64,000 nucleotides of DNA from Oscillospiraceae bacterium (GTDB lineage: Bacteria > Bacillota > Clostridia > Oscillospirales > Oscillospiraceae): positions 1 through 64,000 of the forward strand of contig CADBKF010000009.1 of assembly GCA_902795195.1 (NCBI GenBank), written 5' to 3'. Below the pieces are notes generated by a model, which saw only the letters and a list, made by a program, of their open reading frames with translations, searched no databases and had not been told where the DNA came from. The position numbers were made by a program, and so were the translations under genes. Of this stretch, positions 8,387 to 10,777 are shown in pieces. Numbering within the stretch: the first letter of the stretch is position 1; every line of letters begins with the position of its first letter.

Positions 8387-8590
8387 GGAAAGTGGAAAGT
8401 GGAAAGTGGAGAGTGGAGAGCGTAGGGACAAGCCTTGCTTGTCCGGTGGGGCTGGACAAGCAGAGAGTGAGGAACGAGGAGCGAGGAGTGAGGAGTGAGG
8501 AGCGAGGAGCGAGGAGCGAGGAGTGAGGAGTGAGGAACGAGGAGTTCAGGGATAATTGACAGTTGACAATGGACAGTGGACAGTTGTGGG
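8387..8590. repeat. heptamer tracts with an embedded palindromic unit
   Basis: Five units of the GGAAAGT/GGAGAGT type (8387-8421) are followed by a GTAGGGACAAGCCTTGCTTG palindrome. Then come twelve in-phase units, mostly GAGGAGT, GAGGAGC or GAGGAAC (8462-8545), and five units of the TTGACAG/TGGACAG type (8556-8590). The period of seven holds within each block. No gene. Confidence 0.88.
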
Positions 8591-8692
8591 CCTGTTGCAA
8601 AATGCTCTGTCATTTCGAGCGAAGCGAGAAATCCGTTCCTATTTCACGCTTTTTCACGTGAAAAGTACGGATTTCTCGGTCGCAACAGGCCC
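8588..8692. repeat. MITE-like element with GGGCCTGTTGC inverted ends
   Basis: The 11-base ends GGGCCTGTTGC and GCAACAGGCCC are perfectly inverted. Inside, GAGAAATCCGT pairs with ACGGATTTCTC around a further TTTTCACGTGAAAA palindrome. The whole 105 bases can fold back on itself. No coding capacity. Confidence 0.75.
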
Positions 8693-8817
8693 ATTGAATA
8701 TATTCATGCTGCAGCCTGCGCTTTGGCGCGATGCTTCGCACAAGCCCGCAGCATGTCATCCTTCTGTAGCGGACGGGTTCCCCGTCCCATCCGCGTTGCT
8801 TCGCACAAGCCTCAAGT
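8693..8817. repeat. repeat-bearing spacer without gene
   Basis: Two copies of GCTTCGCACAAGCC flank a GGACGGGTTCCCCGTCC palindrome (8770-8787). No promoter, start site or protein family is evident. Confidence 0.6.
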
Positions 8818-8899
8818 ATGTCATTCTGAGCGCAGCGAAGAATCCAAGCGCCTTCGCCAAGACACCTTTTTAGATTCTTCGCTGCGCTCAGAATGACAT
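8818..8899. repeat. TGTCATTCTGAGC hairpin element, complete copy
   Basis: The ends ATGTCATTCTGAGCGCAGCG and its exact complement at 8875-8899 are inverted around a 30-base centre. This unit is seen in many unrelated bacterial genomes. A half copy occurs at 33478-33506 and a degenerate copy at 58745-58817. Confidence 0.85.
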
Positions 8900-8933
8900 T
8901 TCTGGGAGTCGTTTCTCCTGCTGCCGGCGCAAC

Positions 8934-9212
8934 GGGCCGTCGAGACGCCGGCCCCTACAACGTTCTCCTATTGCCTATTGCCTCCTCGCTCCTGCTCTGT
9001 CCCTCGTCACCGGACAAGCACGGCTTGTCCCTACACCTTCCCCATCCAACTCCTCGCTCCTCACTTCTCCCTCTCCTTTTGGCTGCCTGCTGCGCGGGCC
9101 GTCGAGACGCCGGCCCCTACAACGCTCTCCTATTGCCTCTTGCCTGTTCCCTATTGCCTCAAAACACTTTCCACTTTCCACTTTCCATTTTCAACTATCA
9201 ACTGTCCCTGAT
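8934..9212. repeat. composite repeat block
   Basis: Two GGGCCGTCGAGACGCCGGCC units (8934 and 9096) are interleaved with a GGACAAGC palindrome and runs of CTATTGC and CTTTCCA heptamers. The stretch from about 9071 repeats 3003-3070 almost base for base. No gene. Confidence 0.85.
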
Positions 9213-9235
9213 CCAAAAATATTTTCCCAGCTATC

Positions 9236-9263
9236 TTGACAGGGGCCGCGGATGTGGTATAAT
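9236..9263 (+). promoter_or_regulatory. sigma-A promoter of the riboswitch transcript
   Basis: Consensus TTGACA and TATAAT with a 16-base spacer place the start of transcription near 9270, just ahead of the aptamer. Confidence 0.85.
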
Positions 9264-9283
9264 AGGGGTGTAAAAAGTGAAAA

Positions 9284-9404
9284 CTTCCCTGAGGGAGTAG
9301 TTCCGCAGATCCGCTGCGGGGGGGCGCTCGTCATCACGCCATTCGGCCGGGTGCATCCGCAAGAACGAGACTCATGTACAGTCCGGCTGTGCATGGGTTT
9401 TTTT
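9284..9404 (+). promoter_or_regulatory. yybP-ykoY (Mn2+) riboswitch with terminator
   Basis: The leader has the conserved parts of the yybP-ykoY aptamer in order: CTGAG then GGAGTAG, a variable CCGCAG/CTGCGG hairpin, CGTCATCACG, a GCC-attc-GGC hairpin directly followed by CGG, and CGAGA then CTCA closing P1. The 3' side of P1 overlaps the start of a 9-base-pair terminator stem (CATGTACAG / CTGTGCATG, 9373-9395) with a T tract. Metal binding would close P1 and disfavour the terminator, making an ON switch as in known members. Known targets are Mn exporters; here the next genes are nfeD and an SPFH gene. Confidence 0.78.
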
Positions 9405-9423
9405 GTTATTTCATTTTCACAGC

Positions 9424-9452
9424 TTGACAGTTTTGAAGTTTTCATTTATGAT
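9424..9452 (+). promoter_or_regulatory. second sigma-A promoter, downstream of the riboswitch
   Basis: TTGACA and TATGAT with a 17-base spacer lie after the terminator and 27 bases before the nfeD start codon. It could supply riboswitch-independent basal expression. Confidence 0.6.
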
Positions 9453-9478
9453 CAAATCAGAGAAAGGAGGAGTCTCAA

Positions 9479-9904
9479 ATGGAGCTATGGTTTTGGGTCG
9501 GCGTGGCTGTGGTGCTGGCAATCGCGGAGGCGATGACGGTGCAGCTGGTGTCGCTGTGGTTCGTCTGCGGTGCGGTTGGCGCCATCGTCGCGCAGCTGCT
9601 GGGCGCGCCGCTGTGGGCCCAGGTGCTGGTATTCGCGCTCATCTCGCTGGCGCTGCTGCTCGGGCTGCGGCCGTTCATCAAAAAGCATGTCAGCAAAAAC
9701 GTGATCAAAACCAACGTGGATTCCCTGGCAGGCCGGCGCGCTCTGGTCATTGAACGCATCGACAATCTGCAGGCCAGCGGCCGCATCCAGCTCGACGGCG
9801 CCGACTGGACTGCCCGCAGTGTCGACGACAGCGTAATCGAGCCCGGCACAGAGGTCGTGATCCGTTCCATTTCGGGCGTCAAGGCCCTCGTTGAAACGAT
9901 CTGA
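9479..9904 (+). CDS. NfeD-like membrane protein
   Basis: A 141-residue short NfeD protein: two or three membrane segments in residues 1-65 and a soluble OB-fold domain at about 75-141 (GRRALVIERI, WTARSVDD, VVIRSISG). NfeD proteins are partners of SPFH membrane scaffolds and the two genes are usually adjacent, as here, 21 bases apart. AGAAAGGAGGAG precedes the ATG. Expression probably depends on the Mn-type riboswitch plus the internal promoter. Confidence 0.9.
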   Translation: MELWFWVGVAVVLAIAEAMTVQLVSLWFVCGAVGAIVAQLLGAPLWAQVLVFALISLALLLGLRPFIKKHVSKNVIKTNVDSLAGRRALVIERIDNLQASGRIQLDGADWTARSVDDSVIEPGTEVVIRSISGVKALVETI

Positions 9905-9925: not shown

Positions 9926-10777
9926 ATGATTCCCTACATCGTCATCGGCGTCGTTATCGCCATCTTCCTGATTTTCTTCTTCTCCAACGTGCAGGTGGTC
10001 AAGCAGTCCCATGCCTACGTGATCGAGCGGCTGGGCGCCTTCCACAAGGTCTGGGGCGTGGGTCTTCACGTCAAGCTCCCCTTCGTCGACCGCGTCGCAA
10101 AGCGCGTGTCTCTGAAAGAGCAGGTGCTGGACTATCCGCCCCAGCCCGTCATCACCAAGGACAACGTCACCATGCAGATCGACACCGTCGTCTACTTCCA
10201 GATCACCGACCCCAAGCTCTACACCTACGGCGTGGAAATGCCTATGGTCGCGATGGAGACCCTCACCGCAACGACCCTTCGTAACATCATCGGCGATCTG
10301 GAGCTCGACCAGACCCTGACCTCCCGCGACGTCATCAACACCAAGATGCGCGCCATCCTCGACGAGGTCACCGACCCCTGGGGCATCAAGGTCAACCGCG
10401 TGGAGCTCAAGGCCATCCTGCAGGCCGAGGGCCAGAAGCACTCCGCCATTCTCGTGGCCCAGGGCGAAAAGGAGTCCGCAATCTTAAGAGCCAGCGCCGA
10501 AAAGGAAGCCGCCATTCTGAAAGCCGAGGCCGAGAAGCAGTCCAAGATCCTCAAGGCCGAGGGCGAGGCACAGGCGATCCTGGCCGTGCAGCAGGCCACC
10601 GCGGACGCACTCAAGCTCCTGAACCAGGCCAACCCCAACGAGCAGGTCATCAAGCTCAAGGCCCTCGAGACCATGGCCACCGCTGCCAACGGCCAGGCCA
10701 CCAAGATCATCATCCCCAGCGAGATCCAGGGCCTCGCCGGCCTGGCAAGCGGCCTGGCCGAGAGCGTGAAAAAGTAA
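9926..10777 (+). CDS. SPFH/Band 7 protein, QmcA/stomatin-like, with a shortened neck
   Basis: A 283-residue protein: N-terminal membrane anchor (2-22), SPFH domain (about 25-170, with VKLPFVDRV and LRNIIGDLELD), then a coiled coil of ILKAEAEKQ-type repeats and a hydrophobic C-terminal GLAGLASGLAE. It should form membrane microdomain scaffolds with the NfeD partner. In family members the helix after VNRVELK normally reads IPP..IQ.AME.QM.AER; here VELK runs straight into AILQAEGQK, so about 25 residues are absent in frame. This explains the length below the usual 305-320. Whether the deletion alters cage assembly is unknown. Confidence 0.9.
   Translation: MIPYIVIGVVIAIFLIFFFSNVQVVKQSHAYVIERLGAFHKVWGVGLHVKLPFVDRVAKRVSLKEQVLDYPPQPVITKDNVTMQIDTVVYFQITDPKLYTYGVEMPMVAMETLTATTLRNIIGDLELDQTLTSRDVINTKMRAILDEVTDPWGIKVNRVELKAILQAEGQKHSAILVAQGEKESAILRASAEKEAAILKAEAEKQSKILKAEGEAQAILAVQQATADALKLLNQANPNEQVIKLKALETMATAANGQATKIIIPSEIQGLAGLASGLAESVKK

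Follow-up and report, generated by a model that had tools for sequence, protein, structure and literature searches.

A putative Mn2+-riboswitch-type leader ahead of nfeD and SPFH genes in an Oscillospiraceae genus

The window, a 64-kb (64,000-nucleotide) stretch of DNA from an Oscillospiraceae bacterium, carries a promoter, a structured leader and an intrinsic terminator directly ahead of nfeD and a gene for a stomatin-like SPFH protein. The features of the locus, all on the forward strand, are as follows.

9236 to 9263, + strand: sigma-70-type promoter read from the sequence (TTGACA at 9236-9241, a 16-nt spacer, TATAAT at 9258-9263)
9288 to 9377, + strand: predicted three-helix aptamer of the Mn2+-riboswitch type (match to covariance model R2, described below; MFE fold with P1, P2 and P3; covariation in 37 relatives)
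9288 to 9293, + strand: 5' strand of the P1 switch helix, pairing with 9371-9376 with one mismatch position
9294 to 9300, + strand: 5' strand of L1, GGAGUAG, which includes the A equivalent to A10 of L. lactis
9303 to 9319, + strand: P2 hairpin, with compensatory changes in 3 of its 5 pairs
9320 to 9358, + strand: P3 arm, with a lower helix (9320-9330/9348-9358) and an upper hairpin (9338-9347)
9331 to 9337, + strand: L3 bulge of 7 nt, UCAUCAC, in which A9333 is the counterpart of the Mn-sensing A41 of L. lactis and A48 of X. oryzae
9359 to 9370, + strand: J3/1 and the 3' strand of L1, GCAAGAACGAGA, ending in ACGAGA at 9370; the AGA preceding CTCATG is conserved
9371 to 9404, + strand: intrinsic terminator, with a hairpin at 9371-9397 and T7 at 9398-9404; its 5' arm, CTCATG at 9371-9376, is also the 3' strand of P1
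9479 to 9904, + strand: nfeD, 141 aa (PF01957, E 1.1e-15)
9926 to 10777, + strand: SPFH/Band_7 protein, stomatin-like, 283 aa (PF01145, E 1.7e-30)

A preliminary description of this DNA had assigned the leader to the yybP-ykoY type from four landmarks, and we located every one of them: GGAGTAG at 9294-9300, CGTCATCACG from 9329, CGG at 9348-9350 and CGAGA at 9366-9370. This pattern occurred once in the 64-kb window and in none of 40 shuffled windows. The same description had noted a terminator overlapping P1 and had named nfeD and an SPFH gene as the first genes; both statements held up, the latter through the two Pfam matches and a genus-wide association of the leader with SPFH genes. When the aptamer (9288-9377) was folded alone, the MFE structure consisted of the expected P1, P2 and P3. 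With the 3' flank added, P1 opened and CTCATG became the 5' arm of the terminator, so that the two structures that share this hexamer are alternative MFE folds. The folding z-score of the leader was -3.3. As modeled, this overlap of P1 and terminator is the anatomy expected of a transcriptional ON switch. Upstream of the promoter, the region at 8500-9220 holds degenerate direct repeats (gaggagcgaggagtgagg-type) in a spacer rich in inverted repeats.

BLAST returned many relatives of the leader within the genus of the source, whose nearest named genus is tentatively Candidatus Faecousia. Outside the genus it yielded mostly short chance pieces, and covariance models were used instead. We aligned 37 genus leaders (alignment A1), and this alignment supports the three helices: 93.9% of cells were paired, compared with 35-48% in slid versions, and 15 of 25 pairs changed on both sides, a result equaled by none of 500 shuffles. 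Two-sided changes were found in 8 of 10 pairs of the lower P3 helix and 4 of 5 pairs of the upper one, while P1 was 98.4% paired with three of its five pairs invariant. Across the 37 leaders, the GAGUA within the L1 motif GGAGUAG was invariant and its first and last G were conserved in at least 90%; the C and A of L3 were likewise invariant. In all genus leaders that we folded, a hairpin followed by a T run overlapped P1, the weakest case being L073. The promoter elements TTGACA and TATAAT with equal spacing also lie upstream of many leaders in the genus, and the stretch from promoter to P1 (9270-9287 in the window) is alike in most of them (ACAAGTTCATA..GC), possibly reflecting common ancestry of the leader copies.

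When the 23 genus genomes were searched with a covariance model built from A1 (R1), 20 of them gave matches, 57 leaders in all; many of the genomes surveyed here are incomplete MAGs. A second model, R2, was built from 75 leaders of the order that lie ahead of MntP, P-type ATPase or CaCA genes. Leaders of the genus and leaders of SPFH genes were both kept out of its training; its alignment was fitted to the R1 structure and its sequences are those of exporter leaders only. This alignment also shows covariation. Applied to the 64-kb window, R2 returned 9288-9377 as its sole match (59.9 bits, E 3e-12; covariance-model E-values are rough here owing to shortened calibration), and it matched all genus leaders offered to it. 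The positive control, the E. coli mntP leader, an experimentally established Mn2+ riboswitch, scored 34.4 bits (E 1e-6).

The only helices formed are P1, P2 and P3, and the P4 of the crystallized four-way junction is missing. We did not hold this against class membership because the exporter leaders of R2 and the E. coli mntP leader, as aligned, also fit the three-helix model without P4; from these alignments, P4 does not look universal in the class. The leader has the L1 signature GGAGUAG...GAGA of a sarcin-ricin-like loop with A10, an L3 with the invariant Mn-sensing adenosine (UCAUCAC, 9331-9337), and a P1 helix that overlaps the expression platform. It did not reach the RF00080 gathering score, and the genes behind it, nfeD and SPFH, are not Mn homeostasis genes, which concerns the regulon rather than the aptamer. 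Taken together, the match to an exporter-only model, the invariant core, the covariation and the conserved P1/terminator switch strongly support the proposed membership of the leader in the yybP-ykoY class of Mn2+ riboswitches.

The preliminary description had counted the lack of an RF00080 match as grounds for rejecting this assignment, and such a match was indeed lacking. No Rfam family reached threshold in the window (Rfam 15, gathering and permissive thresholds), and RF00080 gave no match at E<=10 in 9200-9500 and, when 20 related leaders were searched, none at E<=5. The controls gave a similar picture. At 12 MntP and P-type ATPase loci, RF00080 produced three weak matches (21-30 bits, cutoff 45) and none at the other nine; it matched 6 of 147 order genomes, all six below cutoff, compared with 93 of 295 for R1. 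Because the MntP and ATPase leaders of the order are themselves missed or under-scored, the silence of RF00080 is not decisive and does not refute the assignment. RF00080 is insensitive to the Mn2+-riboswitch leaders of Oscillospirales. This means that much of the class in Clostridia escapes RF00080 and that its known regulon is incomplete. The best weak Rfam match, SSRC10 (RF02617), was rejected as the identity of the leader since its scores, 15-21 bits, lay below the cutoff of 56. In a comparison that took in L099, L094, L101 and the window leader, the consensus of SSRC10 (Streptococcus sRNA 10) was seen to share the landmarks GGGAGUAG, CGUCAAUACG, CCGG and GAGAC as well as a terminator, and SSRC10 may itself be a Mn2+-riboswitch leader.

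Within the genus, SPFH genes lie downstream of 41 of the 57 leaders. The SPFH gene comes first in 21 cases, where it encodes a flotillin-type or prohibitin-like protein; in 11 it follows PspC and in nine it follows NfeD. Seen from the genes, 40 of 61 Band_7 matches in the 23 genus genomes have a leader no more than 0.9 kb upstream, where we estimate that chance would give about 0.04. Roughly one-third of the genus SPFH matches have no leader, and neither nfeD nor SPFH genes encode Mn transporters; both points count against reading the leader as a Mn2+ switch. In the source genome all three SPFH genes are preceded by a leader, and a fourth leader precedes a CitMHS-type permease. We found MntP genes in 18 of the 23 genomes of the genus, and none of the 10 MntP loci tested (L351-L360) has a leader ahead of the gene; the SPFH regulon is therefore not simply a Mn-efflux regulon. 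Sister genera carry the leader ahead of MntP. It is likely that the leader spread within the genomes of the genus by duplication.

Several leaders depart from the common form. In L049 (2572-2700, minus strand), ahead of a flotillin-type gene, most of the P3 arm is tandemly duplicated, and in L231-L233 the usual 3' part (GAGACTCATG and the terminator) is missing. Leader subfamilies ahead of uncharacterized membrane proteins were seen at L053, L055, L057, L067, L228, L229 and L231-L233, and several of them start with CACGAGGGAG.

The Mn2+ riboswitch normally precedes metal-export genes. Order-wide, the gene downstream of R1 matches encoded a P-type ATPase in 39 cases, MntP in 25, a CaCA exchanger in 12 and an OAD-beta-like protein in six, contexts that are either usual for a Mn2+ riboswitch or plausible for cation transport. 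The six OAD_beta genes (Na+-transporting decarboxylase beta-type) come from six order genomes (L081, L149, L167, L171, L199 and L206). Leaders at L043, L064 and L134 were seen ahead of a DUF975 protein, a MogA-like protein and an unnamed membrane protein.

Pairs of leader and SPFH gene also turned up beyond the genus, at L133, L162, L193 and L218, and a different genus of the family contributed L343 and L349. In a leader tree, which was built on 90 nt and is weak evidence, the outside-genus SPFH leaders did not all fall in the genus cluster: two were placed with the leaders of ATPase genes, and one lay close to those of CaCA genes. This suggests at least three recruitments of the leader to SPFH genes, as judged from sequence. 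At L193 (147-4008) the leaders are in tandem, a leader-SPFH unit lying directly before a leader followed by a Na/Pi cotransporter and a CaCA exchanger. Among the 80 nearest stomatin-like SPFH loci elsewhere, only one had an R1 match, and that match lies past the SPFH gene, about 2.6 kb downstream; we therefore consider the nfeD case limited to the genus. These comparisons bring out, at the level of sequence, the class membership of the leader, its switch anatomy and its association with SPFH genes.

In our judgment, the leader is probably a compact three-helix yybP-ykoY Mn2+ riboswitch whose L3 is of the L. lactis type and which controls nfeD-SPFH as a transcriptional ON switch, having been recruited to a membrane-maintenance regulon. 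We infer Mn2+ as the ligand, the ON direction in the cell and this physiological purpose. Without ligand, CTCATG would pair downstream and form the terminator at 9371-9404. Mn2+ would bridge L1 and L3, the arms would dock, and P1 (9288-9293/9371-9376) would be stabilized; the terminator would then not form and nfeD-SPFH would be transcribed. Such a course is described for L. lactis, where Mn2+ bridging of L1 and L3 docks the arms, stabilizes P1 and prevents the terminator (PMC11087558). Within the genus, duplication would be the main route by which the switch reached flotillin-type, prohibitin-like, PspC-SPFH and NfeD-SPFH operons; a rise in cytosolic Mn2+ would thus raise a membrane-maintenance gene set. 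Alkalinization may potentiate the switch because alkaline pH tightens Mn2+ binding by the E. coli mntP element (PMC9603457).

The strongest competing explanation, which we regard as unlikely, is that the same fold answers alkaline pH or a divalent ion other than Mn2+, rather than Mn2+ excess. It would define an RNA-controlled envelope-stress or membrane-integrity regulon akin to that of sigma-W, in which an Rfam-invisible leader subfamily governs the four operon types named above; if so, RNA would do in this genus what sigma-W does in Bacillus. Consistent with such a signal, sigma-W mediates the induction of B. subtilis SPFH and Psp genes by alkaline shock (PMC8581546), and the E. coli alx and mntP riboswitches of the same class are tuned by alkaline pH (PMC9603457). 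The leaderless MntP genes of the genus point the same way, as does the leader tree, where SPFH leaders cluster apart from the CaCA/CitMHS leaders of the same genus. However, the Mn-discriminating adenosine is invariant, L3 matches that of the L. lactis Mn aptamer, and a model trained on exporter leaders readily recognizes the SPFH leaders. The pH tuning in E. coli together with the alkaline-shock control in B. subtilis therefore leads us to favor a Mn2+ switch, perhaps one tuned by pH.

It is very improbable that the RNA acts as a plain attenuator or has become a relic that no longer senses anything, left where an SPFH gene was captured behind the promoter and leader of an exporter. The likely intragenomic spread by duplication and the few degraded copies (the duplicated P3 arm of L049 and the lost canonical 3' part of L231-L233) would suit such a history, but compensatory changes, the invariant core and the terminator overlap are kept in about 40 leaders, and several apparently independent recruitments to SPFH genes occurred outside the genus. 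Slightly less probable again is a new class of RNA with no more than a likeness to yybP-ykoY: no Rfam family reached threshold and SSRC10, not RF00080, was the best weak match, but R2, built from Mn/Ca-exporter leaders only, aligns L1, L3, P1, P2 and P3 end to end (E 3e-12), and RF00080 also fails to recognize the exporter leaders of the order.

To our knowledge, the signals answered by bacterial SPFH, NfeD and PspC proteins are poorly known. A conserved RNA of metal-sensing type ahead of their genes, apparently recruited more than once, offers a direct and testable signal, and the Mn2+-switch reading suggests a place for NfeD, flotillin-like SPFH and PspC proteins in a metal or alkaline stress response. 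The riboswitch class itself is already known; what appears to be new is the tie between a Mn2+-type riboswitch and SPFH/NfeD genes. A search of open-licence PMC articles found none that links yybP-ykoY or a riboswitch with nfeD, SPFH or flotillin.

The leader is best compared with the yybP-ykoY riboswitches (RF00080) of L. lactis and X. oryzae. In their crystal structures, an L3 adenosine that never varies (A41 within UCA41AUUC of L. lactis, A48 of X. oryzae) makes the Mn-specific contact through its N7, and A10 of L1 takes part in an A-minor contact (PMC6754395); both positions are conserved in the genus leaders. The window leader shares with them the L1 motifs GGAGUAG and GAGA, a 7-nt L3 with the sensing A, and a P1 switch helix in competition with a terminator, and with L. 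lactis in particular a UCA-type L3. It differs in having three helices without P4, as in the exporter leaders of the order, in lying below RF00080 detection, and in preceding nfeD-SPFH rather than a Mn transporter. The E. coli mntP leader is likewise recognized by R2, but its L3 is of another type (GUCAACAU) and its gene is a Mn exporter. The MntP, P-type ATPase and CaCA leaders of Oscillospirales have the same architecture and terminator platform, whereas a GUCAACA L3 is found mostly in exporter leaders and CGUCA...CCGG in almost all SPFH leaders. Lastly, the sigma-W regulon of B. subtilis (floA, floT and pspA-ydjGHI) resembles the genus regulon in placing SPFH, NfeD and Psp genes under one stress control, which is exerted by a protein sigma factor in B. 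subtilis and would be exerted by an RNA leader in this genus.
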